Virus record (IMG/VR): IMGVR_UViG_3300045977_000383
Location: 1-30,766 of that record
From: a virus
Direction: 5' to 3' (one strand)
DNA length: 30,766 nucleotides
This document shows, in pieces, positions 231-28,155 of the stretch; positions within the stretch are counted from its first letter, which is position 1; each line of letters opens with the position of its first letter. The position numbers and the translations under genes were made by a program. The notes beneath the pieces were generated by a model. The model was not told the origin of the DNA and ran no database searches. It saw only the letters and a program-made list of their open reading frames with translations.

Positions 231-647
231 ATGTCGAGAGAAATGGAGGAGCTCCTGGGGCGCGTGGCCGGCCAGCTCGATCTCGTGATCGACCGGCAGG
301 AGACGCAGTCGAAGATCCTCCACACCCAGGCCAAGCAGATCGCGGCGCTCGAGACGGCCCTGGAAATGAAGGGCAAGGAAGGGGACCGGGAGCACGACCA
401 GATCCGCCGGCGCCTCGAGGAGGGGGACAAGGAGCTGAACGAGCTCGGCCGCGGCAAGGGCAACCACTCCGACCGCCTGGGCCAGATCGAGAAGAAGCTT
501 GAGGCTGCTTCCGTGCGCCGCTGGGACGTCGCGCAGATCGTGATCTCGGCCGTCGTCGGGCTCGTCGTCTCCGGCACCACCACGGCCGTCGCGTACCTCT
601 GGATGCTCCACAAGCTGGCGGCCGCGGCCGCGAAGGGGGCGCCGTGA
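231..647 (+). CDS. coiled-coil protein with one C-terminal membrane segment (lysis-type candidate)
   Basis: 138 residues. Residues 1-95 are highly charged and heptad-like (coiled coil). Residues about 102-126 (AQIVISAVVGLVVSGTTTAV and on) form a single membrane segment, followed by a short basic/alanine tail. ATG at 231 is preceded by GGGGGCAAGG. This layout resembles the XhlA/haemolysin-type or accessory holin proteins found in phage lysis cassettes, where a long cytoplasmic coiled coil is anchored by one helix. Its place at the end of a late region, just before a lipoprotein, fits that, but no endolysin is visible in the window. Its stop overlaps the start of the receiver-domain gene (GTGA at 644-647). 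Role is inferred; the topology is seen. Confidence 0.75.
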   Translation: MSREMEELLGRVAGQLDLVIDRQETQSKILHTQAKQIAALETALEMKGKEGDREHDQIRRRLEEGDKELNELGRGKGNHSDRLGQIEKKLEAASVRRWDVAQIVISAVVGLVVSGTTTAVAYLWMLHKLAAAAAKGAP

Positions 648-1054
648 AGCGAGCGCTCATCGTCGAGGACAGCGACTCCCTGCGCAAGCTCCTCGAGGAG
701 TTCGTGTGGTCGATGGGGATCGTCCCAGTCCCCTCCGGCTGCGTGGCCGACGCGGTCGCGCAGGTCGGGCCCAACGTGGACATGATCCTCCTCGACCTCA
801 ACCTCCCGAACGGACACGGCTTCGAGGTGCTCCGCAAGGTCGCGGAGAAGCGCAACGACCTGCCCGTGATCGTCCTCTCCGCGTACGTCCGGGACGAGCA
901 GCACGAGCCCCCGGTGCCGGTGCTCGCGTGGATCGAGAAGCCGTTCGGGCTCACGGAAGTCCGGGAGGCGGTGGAGCGGGCTTGCAACTTCAGCGCGTCG
1001 GTAGCGTCGATCCGGCGTTCGACGGATCGGCTTGAGCGGATGGGGCAGATTTGA
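644..1054 (+). CDS. stand-alone response-regulator receiver domain (CheY-like)
   Basis: 136 residues, GTG start inside the stop of the previous gene. The full receiver signature is present: acidic pair E8-D9 (IVEDSDS), phosphoacceptor D51 in LLDLNLP, the switch serine S79 in VIVLSAY, and the conserved lysine K99 in WIEKPFG. It therefore looks able to accept phosphate from a histidine kinase. No output domain follows; after the receiver fold (to about residue 115) there is only a 20-residue basic tail. No kinase is encoded nearby, so any partner would be a host kinase. A receiver domain between a membrane coiled-coil protein and a lipoprotein in a phage late operon is unusual. Translation is probably coupled to the upstream gene. 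Confidence 0.9.
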   Translation: MKRALIVEDSDSLRKLLEEFVWSMGIVPVPSGCVADAVAQVGPNVDMILLDLNLPNGHGFEVLRKVAEKRNDLPVIVLSAYVRDEQHEPPVPVLAWIEKPFGLTEVREAVERACNFSASVASIRRSTDRLERMGQI

Positions 1055-6054: not shown

Positions 6055-6993
6055 TTATGGGGCGCCCGCTCTCGGGTGGGCCCGCCGGTAGACCTCCTTC
6101 AGCCGCTCCATGGCCGTGTGCGTGTAGATCCGCGTCGTCTCGATGAACTCATGGCCGAGCAGGTCCTGGATCTGGTCGAGGGTGGCCCCGCGCTCTAGCA
6201 GGTGGGTAGCGAAGGAGTGGCGCAGCATGTGGGCGTGGACGTCCAGGCCGATCATCGCGCCCGCCTTCTCGACGACCTCCTGGATGGAATCCCGGGAGAG
6301 CCTGGTGCCGCGCTCCGAGACGAGCAGGGCCTCCTCGTAGGGGCGGCCGTTCGTCGTCATAAATTCGGCGCGCTGCGGCAGGTAGGCACGGATGGCGGCG
6401 ATCGCGGCGCCGCCGATGGGGACGATGCGCTCCTTCCTCCCCTTGCCGAAGAGCAGGACCTGACCGGCGTCGAGCGAGATGTGCTTCAAGTTGAGGCCGT
6501 GAAGCTCGGCCAGGCGGCAGCCGGTCCCGTAGAGCACCTCGAGGATGACCACGTTCCTCGACGCCAAGCTGGTCTTCCGCCCGGACACCTTGGGCGCGGC
6601 CGCGATCAGGGCCTCGACTTGGGGCAAGAGCAGGAACTCCGGCAGCCGGCGCTCGGCCTTGATGCGCCCGAGATCTTCAAACGGGTTGTCTCGGAGCTTC
6701 TTTCGCCCGCGCGCCCACCGATGGAACTGGCGGCACGAAGACACGCGGCGCTGGATGGTTCGGCCTGCGACCTCGAGCTGGCGCAGCTGCAGGATCCAAG
6801 CCTCGACGTCGGCGAGCTCGGCGTTCTCGATGGGGACCTGGCGGACGTCCAGGAAGAGGAGCCAGCCGTCGAGGTCAGTGGTGTAGGCTCGGATCGTGGA
6901 TAGGGGATGATTGAGGGCCGCGAGACTCGCGGTCCACTCCCGCTTCAGCACTTCCCCGGTCGTGACGGACCCGGTTCCCGATCGAGGTTCCAA
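6055..6993 (-). CDS. int: tyrosine integrase/recombinase (XerC/XerD type)
   Basis: 312 residues if started at TTG 6993 (GGAG 8 bases upstream); a GTG at codon 15 is an alternative. It has the SAM-like core-binding domain (residues about 15-105) and a complete catalytic domain: R160 (GTGCRLAEL), K184 (GKGRKERIVP), H255 and R258 (HMLRHSFATH), H281 (LLGHEFIETT) and the nucleophile Y290 (IYTH). It is expected to carry out strand exchange between phage and host attachment sites. Length and motifs are close to XerC/XerD. It is transcribed away from the repeat-rich region 6994-7495, where the attachment site is likely to be. No excisionase is certain; small HTH-type genes in the window are candidates. 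Confidence 0.95.
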   Translation of the reverse strand: MEPRSGTGSVTTGEVLKREWTASLAALNHPLSTIRAYTTDLDGWLLFLDVRQVPIENAELADVEAWILQLRQLEVAGRTIQRRVSSCRQFHRWARGRKKLRDNPFEDLGRIKAERRLPEFLLLPQVEALIAAAPKVSGRKTSLASRNVVILEVLYGTGCRLAELHGLNLKHISLDAGQVLLFGKGRKERIVPIGGAAIAAIRAYLPQRAEFMTTNGRPYEEALLVSERGTRLSRDSIQEVVEKAGAMIGLDVHAHMLRHSFATHLLERGATLDQIQDLLGHEFIETTRIYTHTAMERLKEVYRRAHPRAGAP

Positions 6994-9244: not shown

Positions 9245-9277
9245 CCGTGTGTGAGCGAAGGAAGAAAGGAGACGGGC

Positions 9278-10207
9278 ATGAGCAAGGTTCCGGTGGATCA
9301 CTCGGCGGTCTCGAGCCCTCCTAAGAAGGAGGGCGACGGCGGCTTCCTGGGTGCGATGACGGAGACGCTCAAGAAGGAAGGCGTCGACGTTGCGCCCGCC
9401 GTCGCGGCGCACGCGCCCGCGAAGGGCGTCCTGGCGAACATCCGCAAGGGACGGAAGAACTCGCCCCCGAGGATCGTCCTGGTCGGCACCGAGGGCATCG
9501 GCAAGTCGACGTGGGCAGCGAAAGCGCCCTCGCCCATCATCATCCCGACCGAGGACGGCCTCGACCATATCGACTGCGAGAAGTTCACCTGGGAGGACGG
9601 CCGCCGCAAGAAGGCCAACACCCTGCAGGAGGTCCTCGAGGTCCTCACGGGTCTGGCCAGCGAGCCGCACACCTACCAGACGCTCGCCATCGACTCGGTC
9701 GACTGGCTCGAGAAGCTGATCCTGGCGAACGTCTGTCGCAAGATGGCCAAGAAGAACATCGAGGACATCGGCTACGCGAAGGGCTACATCTACGCCCTCG
9801 ACGACTGGCGCGAGGTCCTCGACCTCCTCACGCGCTGCCGGACGCGCGGGATGGCGATCATCCTGATCGCCCACGCCAAGGTCGAGCGCTTCGAGGACCC
9901 CGAGAACCCGGCCTACGACCGGTACACCCCGCGCCTCCACAAGCACGCCCAGGCGCTCCTGACGGAGTGGGCCGACGCCGTCCTCTTCGCCACGCGCCGC
10001 ATGACGACGAAGCGCGAGGACAAGTCGGACGACACCTCGCGGCCCCTCGCCATCCCCGTCGGGGCGAACGGCGGCGATCGCATCATCCGCACGGTCGGCG
10101 GTCCCGCGTGCATCGCCAAGAACCGCTACGACCTCCCCCCGGAGATCCCGATGGACTGGAACGCGTTCCAGGCCGGCTTGGCCGCCTTCATGTCGAAGAC
10201 GGCCTGA
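9278..10207 (+). CDS. RecA-fold phage ATPase (AAA_24, Sak4-type recombination protein)
   Basis: 309 residues; ATG 9278 follows AAAGGAG by 6 bases. Walker A is GTEGIGKST (residues 70-78), Walker B is TLAIDSVDW with D139, and GMAIILIAHAK is the sensor strand. The layout and length match the AAA_24 / Sak4 family of phage annealing or recombination ATPases, which pair single strands together with a phage single-strand-binding protein. Exactly such a protein (DUF669 type) follows 30 bases downstream. The first 60 residues are an unstructured, lysine-rich lead. Function in recombination-linked replication is well supported by context. Confidence 0.85.
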   Translation: MSKVPVDHSAVSSPPKKEGDGGFLGAMTETLKKEGVDVAPAVAAHAPAKGVLANIRKGRKNSPPRIVLVGTEGIGKSTWAAKAPSPIIIPTEDGLDHIDCEKFTWEDGRRKKANTLQEVLEVLTGLASEPHTYQTLAIDSVDWLEKLILANVCRKMAKKNIEDIGYAKGYIYALDDWREVLDLLTRCRTRGMAIILIAHAKVERFEDPENPAYDRYTPRLHKHAQALLTEWADAVLFATRRMTTKREDKSDDTSRPLAIPVGANGGDRIIRTVGGPACIAKNRYDLPPEIPMDWNAFQAGLAAFMSKTA

Positions 10208-10237
10208 ACCCCGAAGGTGAATGAAAGGAGATAGGAC

Positions 10238-10747
10238 ATGGCGGACCTCGGAGAGACGTTCGACGCGAGCAACGTGGAGCCCAACGCGCCCCGCGACCTG
10301 AAGCCGGAAGGCTGGTACCCCGGCATCATCGTCGAGAGCGAGAAGAAGCCCACCAAGGCGAACGACGGCAGCGAGTACCTCAACCTGCAGCTGCAGCACA
10401 TCGCGCCCAGCCCGTTCGTGGGCCAGCCCGAGTGGGACATCCTCAACCTCTGGAACAAGAAGAGCGAGCAGGCCGTGACGATCGCGCGCGGCACTCTCTC
10501 GGCGATCTGCCGGGCGGTGAACATCCTCACGCCCAAGGACTCCTCCCAGCTGCACAACCTCCCCCTGCTTTTCAAGCTGGTGGTCGAGGACGGCACCGAC
10601 GGCGTCAAGCGCAACAAGGTGAAGGGCTACAAGCCCTTCGACGGCCAGGCGCCCGCGGCGCCCGCGTCGGCGAAGACCGCGGCTCCCACCCAGGCGCCCG
10701 CGGTCACCGGCGGGCCCGCCCCGTGGGGCCAGAAGAAGACCGGCTAG
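10238..10747 (+). CDS. DUF669 single-stranded-DNA-binding protein
   Basis: 169 residues; ATG 10238 with AAAGGAG 7 bases upstream. The N-terminus (EPNAPRDLKPEGWYPGIIVE, residues about 14-33) and the segment GSEYLNLQLQHI are typical of DUF669, a phage SSB-like OB-fold family. The middle has a helix TIARGTLSAICRAV. The tail is Pro/Ala-rich and disordered, ending WGQKKTG, unlike the acidic tips of cellular SSB. It pairs with the Sak4-type ATPase upstream and the helicase downstream. Confidence 0.85.
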   Translation: MADLGETFDASNVEPNAPRDLKPEGWYPGIIVESEKKPTKANDGSEYLNLQLQHIAPSPFVGQPEWDILNLWNKKSEQAVTIARGTLSAICRAVNILTPKDSSQLHNLPLLFKLVVEDGTDGVKRNKVKGYKPFDGQAPAAPASAKTAAPTQAPAVTGGPAPWGQKKTG

Positions 10748-10761
10748 AAGCTGCGCCCCCA

Positions 10762-10783
10762 GGGAGCCCCGCGAGGGGCTCCC
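10762..10783 (+). terminator. perfect 9-bp hairpin with GCGA tetraloop
   Basis: GGGAGCCCC (10762-10770), loop GCGA, GGGGCTCCC (10775-10783). It lies between the SSB-like gene and the helicase and ends 5 bases before ATG 10789, so it overlaps where the helicase ribosome site should be. It may act as a translational brake or attenuator for the helicase. Confidence 0.5.
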
Positions 10784-10788
10784 TCCAG

Positions 10789-12405
10789 ATGAAGCTTCGA
10801 CCCTACCAGCGCGAGTGCGTGGACGCCATCTGGCGCCACGTCCAGGCGAGCCCCGAGCCCGCCGTCGCGGTCCTCCCCACCGGGGCGGGGAAGGGCGTGA
10901 TCCTCGCTCAGCTGGCCAAGGACGTCGTCGCCTGGAAGGGGCGCATGGTGGTCCTCGCCCACGTAAAAGAGCTGCTCGTCCAGACGTTCGACAACATCGA
11001 GCGCTTGGCCCCCCAGGTTCACGCGGGCGTCTACTCGGCGGGCTTGGGCAGCCGCGAGCTTGCCGCGGCGGTCACCGTCGCCGGCATCCAGAGCATCTAC
11101 AAGCGCGCGGAGGACCTCGGCGCCGTCGACGTCATCGCGATCGACGAGGCGCACCGGATCCCGCCCGAGGGTGAGGGCCAGTACCGGACCTTCCTCGAGG
11201 GCATGCGGGCGCTCAACCCCAACGTCCGCCTGGTCGGCCTGACGGCGACGCCGTACCGGACCGGGACGGGCCTCATCTACGGGAAGGATCAGCTCTTCGC
11301 AAAGCCCTGCTTCGAGATCGGGGTGCGCCAGCTGATCATGGAAGGCTTCCTCTCGCCGCTCAAGAGCAAGGCTGGGAACGAGCAGGCGGACGTTTCTGGC
11401 GTCGAGGTCCGCGGAGGAGAGTTCGTCCAGTCGAGCCTTCAGGCGGTCCTCATGGCCGACGAGATGAAGGTCGCCGGCGCCTGCGTGGACATCGGCGCGA
11501 AGACCCAGGATCGAAGGTCCGTGATCGTCTTCGCCGCCGGCGTCGAGCACGCCCAGATGATCGCCCGCTTTCTGCGCGAGCTCGAGGTCGGCCAGGTGCG
11601 GGAGGTCTACGGCGACACCCCGGCGGACGAGCGTGCCCAGACGATCGCCGACTTCCGCGCGGGCCGGGTGAAGTACCTGGTCAACGTGGAGGTCCTCACG
11701 ACGGGCTTCGACGCTCCCGGCGTCGACGCCGTGGTGATGATGCGGCCGACGATGTCGGCGGGCCTGCACTACCAGATGATCGGGCGAGGCCTGCGCCTGG
11801 CCGAGGGCAAGACCGACTGCAGGATCCTGGACTTCTCGGGCAACTTGCTTCGCCACGGCCCGATCGACCGGCTCCTCATCGGTCCGAATGGACCTCCCCA
11901 GGGGGGCGCCGGCGGGGGGCTCTGGAAGAAGTGCCCCTCCTGCGAGGAGGTCATGCCGCGCAGCTGCGGGGTGTGCCCGGACTGCGGTGCCAAGATCGAG
12001 CGCGAGGACCGCGGCGTCGGCCACGGGGCGGCTGCCGGCGATCGCGCGCCCCTCTCGGAGCCCGAACCCGTCCAGTCGATCTACTACAGCTACCACGTCA
12101 AGAAGGACGCGCCGGAAGGCCACCCGCCGACCCTCCGCGTCACCTACGACTGCGGGCTCCTGCAGCAGCCCTCCGAGTGGGTCTGCATCGAGCACACCGG
12201 CTTCGCACGCAGCAAGGCCGAGGCCTGGTGGCGCGCGCGCAGCGACCAGCCGGTTCCCAAGACGGTGGCCGAGGCCCTCGAGGTCATCGCCCGGCACGGC
12301 ATCAAGGAGCCCAAACGGATCGCGCTTCAGGCCGACGGGAAGTACCTCCGGGTCGCGAAGCACCTGGACTTCACCTTCAAGGCGCCGGGGGCGACGGTCG
12401 CATGA
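10789..12405 (+). CDS. DEAD/DEAH superfamily-2 helicase with zinc insertion
   Basis: 538 residues. Motifs in order: Q-type start RPYQREC (4-10), motif I LPTGAGKG (29-36), motif II DEAH (119-122), motif III TATPYR (152-157), and motif VI QMIGRGLR (about 329-336). From about residue 383 a four-cysteine knuckle (CPSCEE, CPDCG) and an accessory C-terminal domain follow. It is expected to unwind or translocate on DNA using ATP. Such helicases regularly sit beside DUF669 and AAA_24 genes in phages. The start has no clear ribosome site; a hairpin ends 5 bases before it. The stop overlaps the next ATG (ATGA). Confidence 0.92.
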   Translation: MKLRPYQRECVDAIWRHVQASPEPAVAVLPTGAGKGVILAQLAKDVVAWKGRMVVLAHVKELLVQTFDNIERLAPQVHAGVYSAGLGSRELAAAVTVAGIQSIYKRAEDLGAVDVIAIDEAHRIPPEGEGQYRTFLEGMRALNPNVRLVGLTATPYRTGTGLIYGKDQLFAKPCFEIGVRQLIMEGFLSPLKSKAGNEQADVSGVEVRGGEFVQSSLQAVLMADEMKVAGACVDIGAKTQDRRSVIVFAAGVEHAQMIARFLRELEVGQVREVYGDTPADERAQTIADFRAGRVKYLVNVEVLTTGFDAPGVDAVVMMRPTMSAGLHYQMIGRGLRLAEGKTDCRILDFSGNLLRHGPIDRLLIGPNGPPQGGAGGGLWKKCPSCEEVMPRSCGVCPDCGAKIEREDRGVGHGAAAGDRAPLSEPEPVQSIYYSYHVKKDAPEGHPPTLRVTYDCGLLQQPSEWVCIEHTGFARSKAEAWWRARSDQPVPKTVAEALEVIARHGIKEPKRIALQADGKYLRVAKHLDFTFKAPGATVA

Positions 12406-12566
12406 GCGACATCGTGACGCGGGAAGGGAAGACGGTGTCCGTGCGCCGCGGCGCCGTGTACGTCGAGCGCACCTACACCGACGAGCACACGGCGGCCGCG
12501 GTGGCCGAGCGCCTCCGCGCCCTCGAGAAGCTGCGGACCAGGTTCCTGACCAAGAAGAGCCGGTAG
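12402..12566 (+). CDS. small hypothetical protein coupled to the helicase
   Basis: 54 residues, ATG 12402 overlapping the helicase stop. Strand-rich N-terminus (REGKTVSVRRGAVYVERTY) and a basic helix (AAAVAERLRALEKLRTRFL). No family recognised. The overlap, codon use and conserved spacing to the next gene support it as real. Confidence 0.65.
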   Translation: MSDIVTREGKTVSVRRGAVYVERTYTDEHTAAAVAERLRALEKLRTRFLTKKSR

Positions 12567-12582
12567 GCGAAAGGAGACGGGA

Positions 12583-14025
12583 ATGGAAGCGGTAGCGGAA
12601 AAAGTCGAGTTCAAGGCAGTCCCCCTGAAGGACCTCGAGGAGGCGCCGTACAACCCCAGGCGGACGTTCGACGAGGAGAGCCTCAAGGACCTCGTCGAGA
12701 GCATCCGCACGAAGGGCGTCCTCAATCCCATCCTGGCTCGCCCGGTGAACGGGCACCTGGAGATCGTCGGCGGGGCCCGTCGGTTCCGCGCCGCGCGCGC
12801 CGCGGGGCTGAAGGAGATCCCCTGCCAGATCCGCGACCTGACCGACGACGAGGCCCTCGAGGTGGCCGTCATCGACAACCTGCAGCGCGCCGACGTGGCC
12901 CCCGCCGAGGAGGCCCGGGGCTTCCAGGAGCTGCTCCGGCGCGGCTACAAGGCCGAGGACCTGGCGAAGAAGGTCAGCAAGAGCATCCGCTACATCTACG
13001 GCCGGATCGAGCTGCTGAAGCTCGCCGCGCCGGTGCTGAAGGCGCTCGAGGACGAGCGCATCACCCCGAGCCACGCCCAGCTGATCGCCACCCTCGACGA
13101 CGAGGACGACCAGAAGAAGGTCCTCGACAAGGCCTTCGTCGAGGTCTACGCGGACCAGGTCCCCGACTCCGACAGCGACGTGATCAGCCCGACCTTCCAG
13201 ATCAAGGACGAGGGCGAGGTCAGGACCCTGGTCAGCATCCGCGACTTCAAGCAGATCGTCAGCGCCCAGAAGCTGGGCTCCGAGCTGATCGAGCAGCTCA
13301 ACGCGCTGAAGATCGCCGGCCACAAGGCCGCCCTGATCAGCGGCATGGACTGGAACCAGAGCAAACAGATCGTCTCCCGCCGGCGCTGGAAGGCCCAGGG
13401 CGCCAAGCCCTGCAAGTTTCCCGCGAAGGGGGTCCTGGTCGACGGGAAGGACCGCGGCAAGGTCCTCAGCATCTGCCTGACCACCAGCTGCAAGAAGCAC
13501 TTCGCCACCAGCCCGGTCGGTCCGACGGTCACACCCGAAGAGCGGCAGCGCCAGCAGGAGGCGGCCGAGCGGAAGGCCAAGCAGGAGCAGGCGCGACACG
13601 AGCTGGCCAGGAAGGTCAAGGTCGAGGTCTTCCGCCAGGTCTGCAACAAGGTGCGCGAGCTGCCCAAGAAGGCGCTCAACGCTCTGCTCGCCGACAGGCT
13701 CTGGGACATCAACCAGAGCGAATTCATCGACGGCTTCAACCCGGCCATCCTGCGGGCCAGCCGCCAGGGCCGGCTGAAGATCGTGGAGAGCCTGAAGCCC
13801 ATCGAGTTCGCCCAGACGGCGATCGCCGCTCTGTGCTGGGACGACATCGAGGGCCGGGACTGGTACAAGCCCACGCACCGCATCGCCGACTTCGCCACCG
13901 ACCTCAAGGTCGACCTCAAGGCGATCGAGAAGGGCGTGCGCGGCAAGTTCGAGGCCGAGCTGCAGGAGAAGCGGGCGGCCGAGCAGAAGGAAAAGAAGCC
14001 GGCCAGGAAGGCCGGCAAGCAGTAG
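12583..14025 (+). CDS. ParB/Spo0J-like DNA-binding protein
   Basis: 480 residues; AAAGGAG 6 bases before ATG 12583. The N-terminal ParB/sulfiredoxin domain is clear: NPRRTFDE (24-31), LVESIRTKGVLNPILARPV (37-55), GGARRFRAARAAGL (63-76, the CTP/phosphate loop region), and VIDNLQRADVAPAEEARGF (96-113). A helix-turn-helix region follows (AEDLAKKVSKSIRYIYGRIE, about 124-143). The C-terminal 250 residues have cysteines (ICLTTSC) and end in a long Lys/Ala-rich helix. There is no ParA gene, so the role may be gene regulation or DNA organisation rather than partition. A dyad-rich gap follows directly and could be its target. Confidence 0.85.
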   Translation: MEAVAEKVEFKAVPLKDLEEAPYNPRRTFDEESLKDLVESIRTKGVLNPILARPVNGHLEIVGGARRFRAARAAGLKEIPCQIRDLTDDEALEVAVIDNLQRADVAPAEEARGFQELLRRGYKAEDLAKKVSKSIRYIYGRIELLKLAAPVLKALEDERITPSHAQLIATLDDEDDQKKVLDKAFVEVYADQVPDSDSDVISPTFQIKDEGEVRTLVSIRDFKQIVSAQKLGSELIEQLNALKIAGHKAALISGMDWNQSKQIVSRRRWKAQGAKPCKFPAKGVLVDGKDRGKVLSICLTTSCKKHFATSPVGPTVTPEERQRQQEAAERKAKQEQARHELARKVKVEVFRQVCNKVRELPKKALNALLADRLWDINQSEFIDGFNPAILRASRQGRLKIVESLKPIEFAQTAIAALCWDDIEGRDWYKPTHRIADFATDLKVDLKAIEKGVRGKFEAELQEKRAAEQKEKKPARKAGKQ

Positions 14026-15582: not shown

Positions 15583-15848
15583 GACGCCCCACCGACCAGG
15601 TCCTGCGCGGCCTCAAGGGGATGGCGGACGCCTTCGACGTGGCCTTGGACCGGCCGCCCTTCTCGGACCTCCACCCTCAGACGAAGCGCGACGTCCGCGC
15701 TGCCGTGCGCTGGTGCTGGCGCATGAACAACGTGCGCGAGGATCGTGCCGAAGTCCGACGCCTCCGAGTACTCCGCGGCGGCTGGTCGCCCGAGTTGCCC
15801 CTACCCCCGTACGCGCCGGCGCGCAGAAAGAAGCCCGCCCGTGGGTGA
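15579..15848 (+). CDS. small basic hypothetical protein
   Basis: 89 residues, GTG start overlapping the previous stop by 4 bases and its own stop overlapping the next start by 8 bases. Arg-rich throughout; a helix at about residues 33-60 (TKRDVRAAVRWCWRMNNVRE) and a Pro/Arg-rich tail. No family recognised. Real coding is supported by overlaps and codon use. Confidence 0.6.
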   Translation: MRRPTDQVLRGLKGMADAFDVALDRPPFSDLHPQTKRDVRAAVRWCWRMNNVREDRAEVRRLRVLRGGWSPELPLPPYAPARRKKPARG

Positions 15849-16653
15849 CCGGACGTCGATCGCCTGGACCGACCACACCTTCAACCCCTGGTGGGGCTGC
15901 GAGAAAGTCTCGGAGGCCTGCAAGTTCTGCTACGCGGAGCGCGAGGCCCACCGCTTCGGCCACCAGGTCTGGGGCAAGGGCGCGGACCGCCGCACCTTCA
16001 GCACGAAGCACTGGATGCGGCCGCACGCCTGGGACATCGCGGCCAAGGCCGCCGGCGTCCGCCGTCGCGTCTTCTGCGCGAGCATGGCCGACGTCTTCGA
16101 AGCCCGCGAGGACCTCGACGGCGAGCGGCGCAAGCTCTGGGACCTGATCGAGAGCACGTCGGGGCTCGACTGGCTGCTCCTGACGAAGCGGCCCGAGAAC
16201 ATCGGGCGGATGGTCCCGGCCGACTGGCTCCGGCAGCCGCGGCCGAACGTCTGGTACGGCACCACGGTCGAGAACCAGGCGACGGCCGACAAGCGGATCC
16301 CCGAGCTGCTTATGCTGCCGGGCCCGGTCCGGTTCCTGAGCTGCGAGCCGCTCCTCGAGCCCATCAACCTATTCGAGTACCTGACGCCCGTGCGGCCGCG
16401 GCGGATCGACTGGGTGATCGCCGGCGGCGAGAGCGGGCCCCGGCCCCGACTCCTCGACCAGGCCTGGATCGAGGACCTCATGGAGCAGGCGCGCGCGGGC
16501 GGCGCCGCCATGTTCGTCAAGCAGCTCGGCACCGCCTACGCCAGGAAGTACCAGCTCACCGACACGAAAGCCGCGGCGGCTTGGGAATGGCCCGGCCACC
16601 TCCGCGTGCAGGAATTCCCCAAGCCCGAGACGGGAAAGGAGATCGCGCGATGA
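15841..16653 (+). CDS. DUF5131 / phage Gp37-Gp68 family protein (three-cysteine, radical-SAM-like)
   Basis: 270 residues from GTG 15841. It opens with TSIAWTDHTFNPWWGC (residues 5-20), the hallmark of the family, and carries C20-x6-C27-x2-C30 (SEACKFCYAE), a likely iron-sulfur site. Further family segments are VFCASMADVFE, WLLLTKRPEN, VWYGTTVENQ, FLSCEPLLEP and WVIAGGESGP, so the protein looks complete. Known members are common in phages and have a TIM-barrel, radical-SAM-like look, but the reaction is not known to me. It lies directly after the nucleotide fusion protein, so a role in nucleotide or DNA modification is possible. Confidence 0.85.
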   Translation: MGDRTSIAWTDHTFNPWWGCEKVSEACKFCYAEREAHRFGHQVWGKGADRRTFSTKHWMRPHAWDIAAKAAGVRRRVFCASMADVFEAREDLDGERRKLWDLIESTSGLDWLLLTKRPENIGRMVPADWLRQPRPNVWYGTTVENQATADKRIPELLMLPGPVRFLSCEPLLEPINLFEYLTPVRPRRIDWVIAGGESGPRPRLLDQAWIEDLMEQARAGGAAMFVKQLGTAYARKYQLTDTKAAAAWEWPGHLRVQEFPKPETGKEIAR

Positions 16654-18141: not shown

Positions 18142-18675
18142 GTGGACTACAAGAAATGCGGGAAGTGCGGACGAACCCTTCCGACGTCGGACTTCCACGT
18201 CCGGCGCCGGAAGGGATGCCGCGACTCCCTCCAGTCGTGGTGCAAGGCTTGCCAACTGGAACGACACAACGCCTGGAAGGAAAAGAATCGCGAACGGTAC
18301 TTGGCCTCACGTCGTCGGCGTCGGAGGGACCGTCTCGAGGCGGGTAGCCAGGAGGTTCGGCGGCAGATCCTGTGCAAGTACGGCCTCACACTGGAGCAGT
18401 ACAGCGAGATGCTCGCCAAGCAGGGCGGCTGCTGCGCCATCTGCGGCCTCCCCGAGCGGGCCAGAAATCAGCACGGTCAACTTTCTCTCTCCGTCGACCA
18501 CAGCCACACCAGCGGGCGCGTACGCGGCCTTCTTTGCCGTTCCTGCAACACGATCCTGGGGATGGCGAAGGAGAACGCCGGGGTCCTCGAGAGGGCCATC
18601 GACTACATCGTCCGGGACGTCGCCGAGGACAACCGCGCTTACTGGGCGGCCGAGGAGGCGCGGGCCCATGCCTAA
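18142..18675 (+). CDS. endonuclease VII-type HNH (recombination) nuclease
   Basis: 177 residues, GTG start. An N-terminal zinc ribbon (CGKCGRTLP, WCKACQ; C6, C9, C34, C37) is followed by a very basic helix and the endonuclease VII domain: YGLTLEQYSEMLAKQGGCCA (80-99), CAICG, SVDHSHTSGRVRGLLC (117-132) and CRSCNTILGMAKEN. C98, C101, C132, C135 bind zinc, and D119-H120 with N136 form the active site as in T4 gp49. It resolves branched DNA. Its end overlaps the start of the primase-helicase by 8 bases. Confidence 0.9.
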   Translation: MDYKKCGKCGRTLPTSDFHVRRRKGCRDSLQSWCKACQLERHNAWKEKNRERYLASRRRRRRDRLEAGSQEVRRQILCKYGLTLEQYSEMLAKQGGCCAICGLPERARNQHGQLSLSVDHSHTSGRVRGLLCRSCNTILGMAKENAGVLERAIDYIVRDVAEDNRAYWAAEEARAHA

Positions 18676-20587
18676 GCCGACCGACGCCGAATTGGAGTCC
18701 TTCATGGAGTTCCTCATGCAGTCCCCCAAGGGGCGCATGACGAGGAAGGACGACTCCGTTCACGGTCGCTGCCCGACGGAGCACGAAGATCGCAACCCCT
18801 CGTTCAGCTTCAAGAAGTCGATCGACGCCTGGGCGTGTTCGTGCGGCGGTGGCAAGGGCTCCGAGTTGCGAACCCGCCTCAACTGGACGTGGCGCGGCGC
18901 TCCCGCGTCCTCGCCGGCGCCGAGGCTCGCCCCCGCGGCCGCGCCGGCGACGATCGAGTGGGCGGTCAAGAACCTCAAGGGCGAGATCGTCTGCACCCAC
19001 ATCCGGCGCAACCTGCCGGACGGCACCAAGCGCTACAGCTGGAGCGTCCCAGGCAAGGACGGCGAGGGCCTCCACGGGATGCGCGCGGCCGACCTCCCGC
19101 TCTACGGCACCGAGAAGCTTTCCAACGGCGACCCAAAGGTGCCGGTCGTCCTCTGCGAAGGTGAAAAATCGGCCGACGCGCTCCAGGAGCTGGCCGGCGA
19201 CCTGGTCGTCACGCTCGCCACGGTGACGGGCGCCTCGGGAACGCCGTCCCCCGCAACCCTCGAGGTCCTGAAGGGCCGCGCGGAGATCCACCTCTGGCCC
19301 GACCACGACGACATCGGCCGGATGCACATGGAGCGCATCGCCCAATCCCTGAAAGGGATGGGAGTCCCCTCAAGAACGATCGCGTGGAAGAACGCCCACA
19401 ACGTCGGCGACGACGCCGCCGATTTCGTATCACGTGGAGCCTCTGTAAAAGATCTCAACCGGCTGCTGGGGAAGCTCGACTGGCGGGAGATCCTGAACGC
19501 CCAGCCGGTCCCCGCGACGGACCTGGCCAGCCTGGTGGGGAAGCCCGTCCCCTACATCATCAAGCCGATCGCGGTCCGCGGCGCGCTCACCCAGGTCCAG
19601 GGGATCCCGAAGGGCGGAAAGTCGGCCTTCACGGTGTTCGTGTCGCTCTGCGCCGCGGCGGGCGAGTGGCCCCAGCAGGAGATCATGGGGCCCGTCAATC
19701 CTGGCCAACTCAAGGTCCTCTACCTCGCCTGGGAGGACCCGGACCTCATGATGGCCCAGCGCCTCAGCCTGTATGGACAAGGACTGGGTTTCACAAAGTC
19801 ATTCCTCCCGCCCAACCTCACCTTCCTCTTCGCCCCGGAGATTTTCGTCGAACGCGGCGACCATGCGGAGGCGCTGCGCCAGGCCATCACCGAGATCAAG
19901 CCCGACATCGTCGTCTTCGACACCCTCTCGCACGTCCACCTCTGCGACGAGAACGCCGCCTCGGAAATGAAGATCCCGATGCGGGCCCTCGACCGCATCG
20001 CCCGCGAGACCCAGACGTCGGTCATCTACCTCCACCACACCAGGAAGGGCGCCGACGGCCACGCGACCGAGAAGGGCCGCGGCTCCCAGTCGATCGCGGC
20101 GGCCTGGCACGTCCTCGTCGATTGGGGACTGCGCGAGGAAGGCTCGAACGTCAACCCCGTGAAGATCCTCTCCAAGTACGAGCACAAGACCCAGAACTGG
20201 GACGTCCGCTACGTGCCGGTCTATTCAGGCGAGCCCGTCCCCCATGGCCAGGAGCCCGAAGTCATCCAGGTGAAGTGGGAGATCGAGCGCCACGGAGGCG
20301 GAGCAGCTGCTGCCGCCAAGCCCCAGAAGGTTTCGCGCGCGGACGTGAAGCGCACCCGCATCATCGGCACTGTCCGCGAGCTCTGCCTGGCCTCCCTCGA
20401 CGGCTGCACGACCGCCAAGGACGTGGCGTCCGCGTGCGGTCTGGGCCTCGATTCCCGGTCCATCAAACGCCACCTCACCGACCTCTGCACCGATGGGGCG
20501 CTGGAGTTTCAGGAGGGTTTACCCACCAAAGGTGGCCGCTCTCCCGACACCTACCGGCCCGGAAAGGGGAATCTCAGTGACCTCTAA
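18668..20587 (+). CDS. bifunctional primase-helicase (Zn finger, TOPRIM, RecA-like ATPase)
   Basis: 639 residues from ATG 18668. Order: zinc finger HGRCPTEHED and WACSCGGG (C35, H39, C57, C59); TOPRIM with VVLCEGEKSADAL (E164) and LWPDHDDIGR (D212, D214); hexameric RecA-like ATPase with Walker A GIPKGGKSA (K318), Walker B DIVVFDTLS (D418) and SVIYLHHTRKG; and a C-terminal winged-helix region (about residues 560-620, CTTAKDVASACGLGLD, RHLTDLC). It would lay primers and unwind DNA at the fork. The iteron-type repeats start 2 bases after its stop, and the winged helix could bind them. Complete, no broken motif seen. Confidence 0.93.
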   Translation: MPKPTDAELESFMEFLMQSPKGRMTRKDDSVHGRCPTEHEDRNPSFSFKKSIDAWACSCGGGKGSELRTRLNWTWRGAPASSPAPRLAPAAAPATIEWAVKNLKGEIVCTHIRRNLPDGTKRYSWSVPGKDGEGLHGMRAADLPLYGTEKLSNGDPKVPVVLCEGEKSADALQELAGDLVVTLATVTGASGTPSPATLEVLKGRAEIHLWPDHDDIGRMHMERIAQSLKGMGVPSRTIAWKNAHNVGDDAADFVSRGASVKDLNRLLGKLDWREILNAQPVPATDLASLVGKPVPYIIKPIAVRGALTQVQGIPKGGKSAFTVFVSLCAAAGEWPQQEIMGPVNPGQLKVLYLAWEDPDLMMAQRLSLYGQGLGFTKSFLPPNLTFLFAPEIFVERGDHAEALRQAITEIKPDIVVFDTLSHVHLCDENAASEMKIPMRALDRIARETQTSVIYLHHTRKGADGHATEKGRGSQSIAAAWHVLVDWGLREEGSNVNPVKILSKYEHKTQNWDVRYVPVYSGEPVPHGQEPEVIQVKWEIERHGGGAAAAAKPQKVSRADVKRTRIIGTVRELCLASLDGCTTAKDVASACGLGLDSRSIKRHLTDLCTDGALEFQEGLPTKGGRSPDTYRPGKGNLSDL

Positions 20588-20803
20588 CCCATCGGTCAAA
20601 CCCATCGGACATTCCAGCATCGGTCATTGTCCGATGGCCCTGGCGAGGCCATCGGACAAGGGGGGGGTACCCCCTAAAGGGGGTACCCCCTCCCCCCTTG
20701 TCCAATGGCTCGCCTCGCTGGGTTTTGTCTTCTGGTTTTTTGTCCGATGGGTGGCCCTGGTTTGCAGTCGCCTGCATGAACAGGCGCGAAGCAGGGGGGC
20801 GTC
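20588..20803. other. candidate phage replication origin with seven 10-bp iterons
   Basis: The motif CCATCGGWCA, or its complement, occurs at 20589-20598, 20602-20611 and 20617-20626 (first base G), all plus; 20628-20637 minus; 20649-20658 plus; 20699-20708 (one change, TGTCCAATGG) and 20741-20750 minus. A long hairpin lies between copies 5 and 6. T-rich pieces (GGTTTTGTCTTCTGGTTTTT, 20721-20740) sit next to the last copy and are the most AT-rich part locally. It follows the primase-helicase gene at once. Iterons, a hairpin and a T-rich element next to the replication initiator are the usual parts of an origin. Not proven. Confidence 0.7.
20642..20714. repeat. long inverted repeat (cruciform) inside the origin candidate
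   Basis: The inner arms are GGGGGTACCCCC-type: GGGGGTACCCCC (20663-20674), loop TAAA (20675-20678), GGGGGTACCCCC (20679-20690). The outer arms CCATCGGACAA (20649-20659) and TTGTCCAATGG (20698-20708) are iterons 5 and 6, with one mismatch. A 4-base C bulge lies between. GGCGAGGCC at 20642 continues the pairing with GGCTCGCC at 20707-20714. Confidence 0.8.
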
Positions 20804-21151
20804 GTGCTGAGCGCCCTCAAGGTCTTCTGCCCGACCTGCATGGCCAGCCCCGGACGCACCTGCCGCGCCGTCGTCGGCCGACGCGGGACCCCGTGCCCGC
20901 CCCACCCGCGCCGGCGGGTGAGCGCCAGCGGGTTCCAACTCGTCGCCCACACGCGCGAGGAGCTCGAAGAGAAGGCCCTCGCCGTGTGCGCCGACAGCAA
21001 CGACCCGCTCGGTGACCAGGAGATCGCGGAGCGCGCCGGCCTCACACTCCCCGAGGCCCTGCCCGTGATCCAAAAGCTCCACGCCGACGGGACGCTGCCC
21101 TGCGCGCGCGGCTGCTCGTTCTGCAGCGAGCCCGAGGAGGGAGCCCCATGA
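20804..21151 (+). CDS. zinc-binding protein with C-terminal winged-helix-like part
   Basis: 115 residues, GTG start with AGGGGGG 4 bases upstream. Residues 9-40 (FCPTCMASPGRTCRAVVG, then GTPCPPHPRR) show a phage zinc-binding pattern of C-x2-C, C and a late Cys/His. The second half (LGDQEIAERAGLTLPEALPV, IQKLHADG) looks like a small HTH domain, and a last CARGCSFC pair follows. First gene after the origin candidate, so a replication-linked DNA-binding role is plausible. Stop overlaps the next start (ATGA). Confidence 0.75.
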   Translation: MLSALKVFCPTCMASPGRTCRAVVGRRGTPCPPHPRRRVSASGFQLVAHTREELEEKALAVCADSNDPLGDQEIAERAGLTLPEALPVIQKLHADGTLPCARGCSFCSEPEEGAP

Positions 21152-21835: not shown

Positions 21836-22077
21836 ACGACTTCGGCCTCGTCGTCCTGGCGATCATCTGCGCCGTGGCCTCTGGCCTCGAGCGATGGGTG
21901 GTCGTCGTTTCGGCCAGGCCGACGCGCTACGGCGGGCGGTACCTGTCGCTGACCTCCCTCTCCACCAGGACGAAGACCCCCAGCGGGCCGCACCGGCCCA
22001 GGGAGGACGTGCGACTAGCCCCGCCGGCGACCGCGTGGTGGACCTGGACTCGAGACGCAAGGAGACGGGAAGCATGA
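21832..22077 (+). CDS. small membrane-anchored hypothetical protein
   Basis: 81 residues, GTG start overlapping the previous stop, GGAGG 5 bases upstream. Residues 3-29 (DFGLVVLAIICAVASGLERW) make one N-terminal membrane segment; the rest is basic and low in structure. The stop overlaps the ATG of the HerA-like gene. No homology recognised; the coding status rests on the overlaps and the ribosome site. Confidence 0.5.
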   Translation: MNDFGLVVLAIICAVASGLERWVVVVSARPTRYGGRYLSLTSLSTRTKTPSGPHRPREDVRLAPPATAWWTWTRDARRREA

Positions 22078-23522
22078 GCAAGGACCTGCTGTACATCGGG
22101 TCGAGCAACAGCGGCGGGCACATGACGCTGCCGGCGGATCTGGGCGACCGGAAGATCGCGATCCTCGCGCAGTCGAACAAGGGCAAGACCTACGGCCTGG
22201 GCGTGATCCTCGAGGAGCTCGCCGCGGCCAGGCTGCCGTTCGTCGCGACCGACCCGGCCAACAACCTCTGGGGCCTGCGGGTCATGCCCGACGGCAGCCC
22301 GAGCAACCTGCCGGTCGTGGTGATCGGCGGGCCGCACGGCGACATCCCGATCGAGAAGGACGCCGGCGAGCGCGTGGCCGAGGCCCTCCTCACGAGCCCG
22401 CAGTGCGCGGTCCTCGACCTCTCGATGGAGTCGCAGGGGAACAAGCGGCGCTTCATGACGGCGTTCTCCGAGCGCCTGATGCGGACGCGCTGCCCGTTCA
22501 GCCTGCCCATCTTCCTCGAGGAGGCGCCCGACCTCATCCCCCAAAAGGCCTTCGGGCCGCAGATGCAGATCTGCAAGGCGGCCGTCGCCAAGCTCGCCAC
22601 GATCGGCGGCAACTTCGGCTACGGCGTCCACCCCGCGAGCCAGCGGCCCGCCACGATCGACAAGGACGTCCTCAGCCAGTGCGAGGCCCTGATCGTCATG
22701 GGCATGACGCACAAGCCGGACCGCAAGACCGTCGCCGGCTGGGTCGAGGCCAAGAACATCGGCGAGCGCGTGAAGCCCATGTTCGACGCCCTCGGCAGCC
22801 TCCAGCCCGGCCAGGCCTGGCTGTGGTGGCCCAGCGAGGACCGCTTCGAGGCCTTCACCTTCCGCAAGCGCGTCACCCTGCACCCGCGGGAGATGAAGAA
22901 GCTCGGCCTGAAGCCGTCGGCCGTGCAGCTGGGGGACGCCAGCGCGTTCGTCGAGCGCCTGCGCAAGGAGATCACGAAGGTGACCGCCGCGGCCTGCCCG
23001 ACCCCGACGAACCCCAAGACGGCACACGCCCTGGGCCGTGCTGTCGAGCAGGCCGTCCGGGTGAAGGTCACGGATATCCCCGCCGTGCAGATGCAGCTGC
23101 AGGAGCTGACAGATCGCTGCCTGAGGCTCGAGGCGAACACCAAGCTGCTCGACGGCGCTCTCGCGGAGGCCCGCCGCGGCCGCGCGGACGCCGAGCGCCG
23201 CCTCGAGGCCGTGCGCAAGCACCTGCGCCCGGAGTACGACGCCCTCGCCACGCTGTTCGGCGACCTGGGCGAGCCCGCGGCTGCCGGCGGCGCCGCCGTG
23301 GACATGACCGCCTGGGAGCCCTGGCTGGCCAAGGCGGGCAAGGCTGGCTGCAAGCGCGTCCTTGAAGCACTGCTCAAGGAAGGCCGGATGCCCATGAAGA
23401 CGCTCGCCGCGCGAGCGGGCATCCAGTACGGCAACCGCAGCTGGCGGGACTACAAGGGCTTCTTGCTCAACAACCACCTGGCCACGATCGTGGGCGAGGA
23501 GATCCAGGCGGTGCAGCTGTGA
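22074..23522 (+). CDS. HerA/FtsK-like ATPase (DUF87-type) with coiled coil and winged-helix tail
   Basis: 482 residues; AAGGAG 9 bases before ATG 22074. Residues 24-50 hold the HerA-type Walker A AQSNKGKT (32-39), and LPIFLEEAPDLIP (144-156) is a Walker-B-like strand with two glutamates; GNFGYGVHPASQRPATI is the arginine/sensor region as in HerA. These motifs mark a hexameric DNA translocase. Residues about 340-400 form a coiled coil (QMQLQELTDRCLRLEANTK and on). The last 70 residues look like a winged helix (VLEALLKEGRMPMKTLAARA, IQYGNRSWRDY). No NurA nuclease is next to it. Role in a phage is unknown. Confidence 0.85.
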   Translation: MSKDLLYIGSSNSGGHMTLPADLGDRKIAILAQSNKGKTYGLGVILEELAAARLPFVATDPANNLWGLRVMPDGSPSNLPVVVIGGPHGDIPIEKDAGERVAEALLTSPQCAVLDLSMESQGNKRRFMTAFSERLMRTRCPFSLPIFLEEAPDLIPQKAFGPQMQICKAAVAKLATIGGNFGYGVHPASQRPATIDKDVLSQCEALIVMGMTHKPDRKTVAGWVEAKNIGERVKPMFDALGSLQPGQAWLWWPSEDRFEAFTFRKRVTLHPREMKKLGLKPSAVQLGDASAFVERLRKEITKVTAAACPTPTNPKTAHALGRAVEQAVRVKVTDIPAVQMQLQELTDRCLRLEANTKLLDGALAEARRGRADAERRLEAVRKHLRPEYDALATLFGDLGEPAAAGGAAVDMTAWEPWLAKAGKAGCKRVLEALLKEGRMPMKTLAARAGIQYGNRSWRDYKGFLLNNHLATIVGEEIQAVQL

Positions 23523-26144: not shown

Positions 26145-26774
26145 ATGGGGAGCGCCCATGTTGTAGTCCCGCCTCGACGCGCCTATTACAAGGGCGTGGA
26201 CGAAGGCGCAGGCGCTCACTCGAACGGGAACGGCCAACCCGATCCCACGCCGACGCCGCCTCTGTCCGTGACTCCGGCGGGCGGCGACGGGCTTTCGCCC
26301 GAGCCGCTCGTCGTGGTCGAACCCTCGGACGTGCCCGCGTCCGCGGCTCCCGCCCCCATCGTCCCTCGCGACGAGAAGGGCCATCCGAAGAAGGGCTATT
26401 CGCTCAACCCGAAAGGCCGCCCGAGAGGCATCCCGAATCGCAACACTGAGCTCGTCAAGCTCGTCAACTCGCGCGAGCTGTCGTGGTGCTGGAAGCGCGC
26501 GAAAGAGCTGGCGAAGAAGGGCGACCTCGAGCTCCTCAAGTTCCTGCTGGGCAAGACGCTGATCGACCAGTCGCCGGCGGCCGCCGGGATCACGATCAAC
26601 GCCAACTCCTCGGCCAACGCCGGCGCCGAGGCCGCGAGTGCTCCCATGAATCTCCATGATCGACTTGCGCAACTCACCGCCGACCCCGCCGCCGTTGACG
26701 AAGTTGCTCACCTCGCTGCTCGCCTGGCCGCCCGAGGTGCTCACTCCGTCGGCGCTGGGAAGAACGGCAACTGA
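26145..26774 (+). CDS. DUF5681-type protein (small terminase-like)
   Basis: 209 residues from ATG 26145 (GTG 26142 is also possible); no strong ribosome site. About 80 residues of disordered Pro/Gly/Ala lead are followed by KKGYSLNPKGRPRGIPNRN (about 85-103) and RELSWCWKRAKELAKKGDLE, LLKFLLGKTL, the DUF5681 core often found just before large terminases. It is therefore a probable small-terminase or packaging-accessory protein. The C-terminus (MNLHDRLAQLTADPAAV) overlaps the open frame of the large terminase by 119 bases. Confidence 0.75.
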   Translation: MGSAHVVVPPRRAYYKGVDEGAGAHSNGNGQPDPTPTPPLSVTPAGGDGLSPEPLVVVEPSDVPASAAPAPIVPRDEKGHPKKGYSLNPKGRPRGIPNRNTELVKLVNSRELSWCWKRAKELAKKGDLELLKFLLGKTLIDQSPAAAGITINANSSANAGAEAASAPMNLHDRLAQLTADPAAVDEVAHLAARLAARGAHSVGAGKNGN

Positions 26775-28155
26775 CGAACGCATGAAGATGACGAGGCTCT
26801 GGCGGCTCTTCGACCTGGTCGCCTGGAAGCTGCTCCTCGGGAGCATCTCGGCCGCGCTCATCATGTGCCCGCCGCAGGTGGGCAAGTCGCAGTATTGGAG
26901 CCGCTTCTTCCCGACCTGGTGGATCGGCGCCAACCCGTCCCATCGCGTGGTGCTCGGCTCCCACGGCGCGCAGTACGCCGCGAGCTGGGGTCGCCAGGTG
27001 CGCGACACCTTGGGCCGCTTCGGGCCCGCCTACTTCGGCGTCCACCTCCGCGACGATCTGGCGGCGGCGAACGAGTGGGGCCTCGCGGCGCCGAACACCG
27101 GCGGCATGGTGACGGCTGGCATCGAGGGCGGCGTCGCCGGCCGCTCCGCCGAGGTCGTGATCGCCGACGACATCATCGCCGACGCCGCCACCGCCGAGAG
27201 CAGGCTCGTCAAGGATCGCGTTTGGGGCTGGTACGAGGAGGAGCTCTGCTCCCGCCTCCAGCATGGCGGGATCCGCGTCATGGTCATGACCCGCCGGGCC
27301 GTCGACGACCCCCCGGGCCGGATCGCCGATCTGATCCAGGCGGGGAAGGAGAAGGGCTGGGCGGTGCTCAAGCTCCCGGCGATCGCCGAGGAGACCGAGC
27401 ACTGGCCGGATTGGGGCTGGCATCGCGAGGTCGGCGAGGCCCTGGTGCCCGAGCTCCACGACGCGGCCGAGTACGAGCAGATCCGTCTGCGACTTGACCC
27501 GCACGTCTGGGCGGGCCTCTACCAGCAGCGGCCCTACCCTCGAGGCGGCGGCGACCTCCGTAGCGAGTGGTTCAAGATCGTCGACGCCGACCAGGCGGCC
27601 ATCGCGAGCGTCAGGGCCTGGGACCTGGCTGGAAGCGAGAGCCCCACGGCGAAGCGCACCGCGGGCGTCCTCATGACGAAGCGCCGCGACGGCACCGCGA
27701 ACCGCTACCACATCCCCGACGTGCGCTACGGTCGGTGGAACCCCGGGCGCAGGAACGAGATCATCCGCCAAGTCGCCGAGCACGACGGCAGAGGCATCCC
27801 CATCGTGATCGAGCAGGAAGGTGGGTCGGGCGGCAAGGCCCAGGTCGAGGAGTTGAAGCGCCTGCTCGACGGCTGGACCGTCCGCGAGGCCTCGGCCACG
27901 GGGTCGAAGGAGTTGCGCGCGGGTCCGCTCGCGGGGCAGGCCAGCGTCGGCAACCTCACGATCCGCAAGGCCGCCTGGAACAGCGAGTTCCACGCCGAGG
28001 TCGACAGCTTCCCGGGCGGCCCCACCATCGACATGGTGGACGCCGCGGCGCACGCCTACAACTACCTCGCGGGCGAGCAGCCCGCGCGTGTCGCGGCCGT
28101 CTCGGCTCCTTCCATCTCCCGCGTGTTCCCCTCGAGCAGCGGGAGGATGTTCTGA
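26656..28155 (+). CDS. large terminase (phage DNA-packaging ATPase/nuclease)
   Basis: 499 residues from ATG 26656; ATG 26782 would give 457 residues and remove the overlap with the small gene. Neither has a ribosome site. Packaging motifs: Walker A CPPQVGKS (71-78), then HRVVLGSHGAQYAASWGRQV, Walker B VVIADDI, and the coupling motif MTRRAVDDPPGR. Nuclease-domain acidic sites are VRAWDLAGSE, IVIEQEGGSGGK and DMVDAAAHAYN. These define a gp17-like two-domain terminase that drives DNA into the head and cuts it. The portal gene follows by TGATG overlap. Confidence 0.92.
   Translation: MIDLRNSPPTPPPLTKLLTSLLAWPPEVLTPSALGRTATDERMKMTRLWRLFDLVAWKLLLGSISAALIMCPPQVGKSQYWSRFFPTWWIGANPSHRVVLGSHGAQYAASWGRQVRDTLGRFGPAYFGVHLRDDLAAANEWGLAAPNTGGMVTAGIEGGVAGRSAEVVIADDIIADAATAESRLVKDRVWGWYEEELCSRLQHGGIRVMVMTRRAVDDPPGRIADLIQAGKEKGWAVLKLPAIAEETEHWPDWGWHREVGEALVPELHDAAEYEQIRLRLDPHVWAGLYQQRPYPRGGGDLRSEWFKIVDADQAAIASVRAWDLAGSESPTAKRTAGVLMTKRRDGTANRYHIPDVRYGRWNPGRRNEIIRQVAEHDGRGIPIVIEQEGGSGGKAQVEELKRLLDGWTVREASATGSKELRAGPLAGQASVGNLTIRKAAWNSEFHAEVDSFPGGPTIDMVDAAAHAYNYLAGEQPARVAAVSAPSISRVFPSSSGRMF

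Follow-up and report, generated by a model that had tools for sequence, protein, structure and literature searches.

An iteron array and long hairpin 3' of a phage primase-helicase gene as a candidate replication origin

In SaPIs and PICIs, the replication origin follows the initiator gene immediately on the 3' side and comprises two sets of iterons around an A+T-rich region, and the SaPI Rep protein recognizes its origin via the C-terminal domain (PMC6092414, PMC7581432). The ORF904 gene of pRN1, which joins primase, helicase and winged helix, is followed just 3' by an essential stem-loop of ~ 100 nt, and the P4 alpha protein, which binds origin repeats, combines a TOPRIM-type primase, a helicase and a winged helix in one polypeptide (PMC4234260). 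The SCCmec helicase Cch2 binds direct repeats located 3' of its own gene. In RSF1010, the RepA helicase, the iteron binder RepC and the hairpin priming sites are separate parts.

The window analyzed here, 30,766 bases long, spans an entire IMG/VR virus record. The region 20589–20750 is probably an iteron-plus-hairpin replication origin that would be recognized by the phage's own primase-helicase, encoded immediately upstream. The features of the locus are listed below in window coordinates.

18668–20587, plus strand: primase-helicase gene, 639 aa, with a DnaG-type zinc-finger-like N-terminus, TOPRIM, RecA-fold AAA_25 and a C-terminal HTH-like region.
20336–20587, plus strand: C-terminal region of this gene, candidate winged-helix origin-binding domain, with predicted helices at aa 557–575, 583–590 and 596–608.
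20589–20598, plus strand: iteron 1, CCATCGGTCA.
20602–20611, plus strand: iteron 2, CCATCGGACA.
20617–20626, plus strand: iteron 3, GCATCGGTCA, one mismatch.
20628–20637, minus strand: iteron 4, CCATCGGACA, in a 13-bp perfect inverted repeat with iteron 5.
20648–20709, no strand: long hairpin, with an 18-bp iteron-bearing outer stem, an inner stem of two GGGGGTACCCCC palindromes and a short A-rich loop.
20649–20658, plus strand: iteron 5, CCATCGGACA, left outer arm of the hairpin.
20699–20708, minus strand: iteron 6, CCATTGGACA, one mismatch, right outer arm of the hairpin.
20719–20748, no strand: T-rich stretch, 60% A+T, candidate melting site.
20741–20750, minus strand: iteron 7, CCATCGGACA; its 12–14 bp inverted repeats with iteron 1 or 2 close the whole region.

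An earlier note, made from the letters alone, had described seven copies of CCATCGGWCA in about 160 bases, four on the plus and three on the minus strand, beginning 2 bases after the primase-helicase gene. The motif scan located all seven in these orientations at up to one mismatch; the consensus itself is matched exactly by five, the copies at 20617 (plus) and 20699 (minus) each deviating at one position. The first iteron begins 2 nt past the last base of the stop codon, which ends at 20587. The iterons form two sets, five on the left and two on the right, that flank the G/C-rich hairpin. Equal density of the motif across the genome, which the same note named as a finding that would count against an origin, is not observed: all five exact copies in the record fall inside 20589–20750, and the other 30.6 kb contain no exact copy and a single near-copy that differs at one position. 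A motif-free count gave 6 related 10-mers in 162 nt, against a maximum of 4 across 40 simulated 30.8-kb sequences. Counted as exact 8-mers alone, the excess is modest (4 copies, matched in 1 of 60 simulations). Among papers containing the decamer, judged by title, none is about origins.

The two iterons at 20649 (plus) and 20699 (minus) form the outer arms of the 18-bp stem, as had been claimed, and inside it the two perfect GGGGGTACCCCC palindromes pair with each other. The whole of 20589–20750 folds into one long stem that is far more stable than shuffled sequences, with z scores of − 8.3 for DNA and − 9.1 for RNA, a fold strength that is in part a by-product of the inverted iterons. The T-rich stretch was likewise found at the far end. 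Only 0.34% of the 30-mers of the window, which is ~ 68% GC, are as A+T-rich as 20719–20748; it is the single A+T-rich stretch of the array region, at 60% only, and a role in melting would be a prediction. A cumulative GC-skew change at the array, also raised earlier, was not borne out, as the skew computed along the window shows no switch and keeps its sign there. A scan for the double GGGGGTACCCCC palindrome returned two loci. At L035:545–578, two GGGGGGTACCCCC palindromes, as in the window hairpin, lie within a reading frame resembling an HTH replication protein; at L034 no HTH-like reading-frame context was seen.

The identification of the upstream gene as a primase-helicase is upheld. The protein matches Pfam AAA_25 (3.6e-27) and PHROG 239, DNA primase/helicase (1.5e-19). 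A profile built from nine relatives and compared with solved structures matches RSF1010 RepA (1g8y, 1.8e-23) and T7 gp4 (6e-13), and its N-terminus matches the DnaG zinc domain (1d0q, 0.003). The TOPRIM motifs EGEK and PDHDD can be read in the sequence, and in the AF2 model the pLDDT per block is mostly 77–93 over residues 91–240. The C-terminus, previously called winged-helix-like, fares less evenly. It has an HTH-like pattern, and AF2 predicts three helices there at a pLDDT of about 60, with the wing unresolved; the isolated domain was modeled at a mean pLDDT of 53.5. Some relatives have C-termini that do match HTH families. A Pfam search of the C-terminal domain of the window protein gave no HTH or other match, and its similarity to the C-termini of relatives, wHTH domains included, is at chance level. 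Because the predicted helices are weak and neither Pfam nor the relatives' C-termini give a significant match, a C-terminal winged helix in the window protein is graded here as plausible.

Single-protein searches of IMG/VR and GTDB genomes with the primase-helicase returned no close relative, and a terminase search returned an overlapping contig of the same phage, one remote locus and nothing else. A search with the window protein aligned to two phage proteins yielded 21 distant relatives in IMG/VR. Many of these have a short-repeat array behind the gene, with a unit that differs by lineage (ACTTTCGCC, CGTGAGA, AGGGTACA, TGTTCAAA, CGTTTCCA, TGTATTAA and ATGCCTAA), and a shuffling test that included the window found 10 of 20 unlikely by chance (p ≤ 0.02). 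A second alignment yielded 80 loci in GTDB genomes. In 21 of them, the 250 bp that follow the gene contain four or more copies of one 8-mer, compared with 0.42% of background stretches. The units in this set include AGTTGGCA, CAGTTTGC, GTCGGGCA, GGTCACAC and TCGGGACA; the Methylococcus (L182) and Cupriavidus (L180) loci have AAGTTGGC/AGTTGGCA units in the 3' region.

For a pooled test, near-duplicates and the window were removed, leaving 75 relatives, and a flank was counted as having an array if any 8-mer occurred four or more times within 250 bp past the stop codon. Arrays were found 3' of 20 of the 75 non-redundant relatives versus 6 of 498 (1.2%) flanks of other ORFs at the same loci (Fisher p 2.4e-14). 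The densest arrays lie − 17 to + 187 nt from the stop codon in 22 of 33 cases. The median fold z score is − 5.2 for 3' flanks with arrays and − 1.0 for those without, a difference that partly follows from the inverted repeats. The relatives share TOPRIM/helicase similarity and vary in the kind of helicase (AAA_25, or DUF927 in some). Fewer than 3 copies of any 8-mer occur in the 3' 250 bp of 45 of the 75 relatives. The closest relative by sequence, L137 from Lucifugimonas marina (40% identity over residues 34–287), has AAA_25 and an HTH-like C-terminus, yet the 3' array is absent, as it is from a large group of Pseudomonas proteins of about 970 aa. Because of these cases, the rule of an iteron array behind the gene holds, as far as the surveyed loci indicate, for a subset of the relatives. 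At L142:4551–4701, three copies of AATCCATG overlap the 3' end of the primase-helicase gene and produce a MDSMDS-type C-terminus.

The suggestion in the earlier note of a likely replication origin gains support on two sides, namely the iteron arrays with other units 3' of a large subset of related genes, and the same layout published as the origin of SaPIs/PICIs and of pRN1; the function itself is what we infer from them. Like SaPI/PICI origins, the window array lies directly 3' of a putative initiator-helicase gene and has two iteron sets around a central stretch. The differences are that this central stretch is a G/C hairpin, with the T-rich stretch beside the right set; that the helicase is a RecA-fold AAA_25 type whose chain also contains zinc finger and TOPRIM, whereas the Rep/Pri-Rep proteins of the PICI lineage are of the SF3/AAA+ type; and that the window is a tailed-phage genome with terminase and portal genes, whereas the PICI lineage has no structural genes of its own. 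Set beside P4 alpha, the window chain joins zinc finger/TOPRIM and helicase, and its wHTH is a low-confidence three-helix pattern. P4 alpha is usually classed with the SF3-type helicases, in contrast to the AAA_25/RecA-fold of the window protein. As in pRN1, the replication gene is closely followed by a large stem-loop (z − 8.3/− 9.1); pRN1 combines an archaeo-eukaryotic primase with an SF3 helicase and lacks iterons, whereas the window has TOPRIM/DnaG-type motifs and iterons. With lambda O-type in-gene origins the window shares a wHTH initiator, here a putative one, and iterons, and CCATCGGWCA itself occurs in O/DnaD-like genes; in those systems, however, the array is within the initiator gene and no helicase is in the same chain. 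RSF1010 also has iterons and hairpins, and its RepA family provides the closest solved helicase structure (1g8y, 1.8e-23). However, RepA, the primase RepB' and RepC are three proteins of which the helicase does not read the iterons, whereas in the window the primase motifs are in the helicase chain. The window looks like the SaPI/PICI, P4, pRN1 and RSF1010 functions brought together in one RecA-fold chain and a single DNA region. A different helicase or primase type places it outside the PICI, P4 and pRN1 families.

The RSF1010 comparison also frames an unlikely alternative, in which the region is an origin but the iteron binder is a different phage or host protein, such as a host initiator or the zinc-finger protein at 20804. 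The primase-helicase would then only be recruited, as RSF1010 RepA is after RepC binding. The dependence of RepA, the most similar RecA-fold helicase, on a separate iteron binder speaks for this arrangement, as do the match of the gene after the array to a zinc-finger family and the lack of a firmly predicted C-terminal wHTH in the window protein. Against it, arrays recur right behind primase-helicase relatives in unrelated contigs, and SaPI Rep and P4 alpha each bind their own iterons. The Pfam and PHROG scans of the window proteins found no RepC-like protein.

The stable fold could instead belong to an RNA element, a terminator or attenuator hairpin that ends the replication gene and of which the repeats are a by-product; we consider this quite unlikely. 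The very stable RNA fold lies immediately past the stop codon, a T-run is present at the far end of the region, and pRN1 also has a terminator at that place. However, a consensus terminator scan found no terminator-like site and an Rfam scan no match, several of the iterons are direct repeats that a simple hairpin does not need, and the relatives retain repeats in both orientations with unrelated sequences.

A tyrosine integrase at 6055–6993 on the minus strand suggests that the phage is temperate or integrating. A recombination/replication block at 9251–14025 (plus strand) contains a Sak4-like ATPase, SSB, a DEAD-type helicase and a ParB-like protein; ParA was not seen. A stand-alone, phage-encoded response-regulator receiver-like protein at 644–1054 (plus strand; IVEDSD...LDLNLP...LSAY...EKPF) and a Gp37/Gp68-like protein at 15745–16653 (plus strand; TDHTFNPWWGCEKVSEACKFCYAE) were both assigned by sequence reading only. 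A 542-aa ORF at 21894–23522 (plus strand) has an NKGKT P-loop and resembles HerA/FtsK-type ATPases; it has a weak PHROG match to the terminase large subunit (5.8e-10), though a separate terminase is encoded at 26656–28155. A terminase identical to that of the window is present in L059 (IMGVR_UViG_3300045940_000234), which runs ~ 4 kb past the right end of the window.

The ParB-like protein, encoded at 12583–14025 with ParB_N and HTH_ParB matches, could bind the repeats as a centromere-like or copy-control array, a very unlikely reading. Weak ParB-like matches lie near 6 of 23 arrays, and in some mycobacteriophages a parS array is found directly behind repA. However, typical parS sites are palindromic and CCATCGGWCA is not, no ParA was found among the window proteins scanned, and most arrays have no ParB match within the few kb examined around them. 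A small inserted MITE-like element with terminal inverted repeats, or a functionless repeat, is scarcely credible: 12–14 bp inverted repeats do close the region, but the array position is kept in part of the gene family though the units are unrelated, and the MITE was rejected since no second copy exists in the record and no target duplication is visible at the ends.

The distribution of the motif in other phages was surveyed by searching IMG/VR for CCATCGGWCA pairs within 30 bp, which gave 28 loci. Many such pairs in IMG/VR are chance occurrences within repetitive genes that code for protein (tail collagen, PSVSP repeats), and these were set aside. At 6 of the 28 loci (L006, L013, L015, L019, L024 and L026) the array lies inside a gene with a match to phage replication initiators or DnaD-like helicase loaders; the match of L013 is weak, and L009 is similar in appearance and has no family match. 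The in-gene motif is translated in three frames, as AIGQ, SHRT and PSD, and in L006 and L015 a spacing of 11 bp changes the frame between successive copies. From this use of three frames and the frame-shifting spacing, it is deduced that the repeat in those initiator genes is maintained as DNA. The reversed motif, used as a control, gave 76 loci, none in initiator genes by phmmer, a search of limited sensitivity, and a PHROG check of seven control proteins identified no initiators (0 of 7). The survey shows that CCATCGGWCA is often an iteron; because the loci were selected by the motif itself, kinship between those systems is not implied. Two other loci have related repeats. At L222:1473–1565, an intergenic CCATCGGACA array closely resembles the left part of the window array (GGACATTCCATCGGACATTG...TGTCCGATGGCCC) and follows two genes, one HTH and one helicase-loader-like, neither of them named by PHROGs. 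At L220:9759–10140, dense GATCGGACATC/CCATCGGACA repeats occur in and next to a gene that has an RSDV-repeat tail and adjoins an FtsK/Tra-like gene.

For the preferred reading, an origin read by the phage's own primase-helicase, we infer binding, melting, priming and origin function at 20589–20750 as follows. The upstream-encoded primase-helicase would be its own initiator, and its C-terminal HTH-like domain would bind the seven iterons. Binding to the two sets around the G/C hairpin would allow RecA-fold helicase rings to assemble, and these would melt the T-rich stretch near the right iteron set. The hairpin arms, extruded or exposed as single strands, may aid helicase loading or priming, as do ssiA and ssiB of RSF1010, and the zinc/TOPRIM part would then synthesize the first primers. 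A bolder extension, offered tentatively and held to be rather doubtful, is that the RecA-fold (SF4-type) primase-helicase acts as an initiator that is specific for the origin and loads itself, and that the C-terminal wHTH and its cognate iterons are a cassette exchanged between unrelated replication proteins, such that CCATCGGWCA would serve O/DnaD-like initiators within the gene and a primase-helicase 3' of the gene.

To our knowledge, replication origins have been identified for only a minority of uncultivated phages. If the rule is true, many phages and mobile elements that encode RepA/AAA_25-type or similar primase-helicases would have their origin located simply by inspecting the 250 bp that follow the gene, and the iteron unit would be predictable for each lineage. 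The layout said to be unique to PICIs would then extend to tailed phages in which the helicase fold is different. That a replicative RecA-fold helicase may recognize its own origin is a further idea, one that can be tested, and the iteron changes among lineages would offer natural variation for studies of winged-helix specificity. The wider interest is in an origin-finding rule and in a possible origin-specific RecA-fold replicative helicase.
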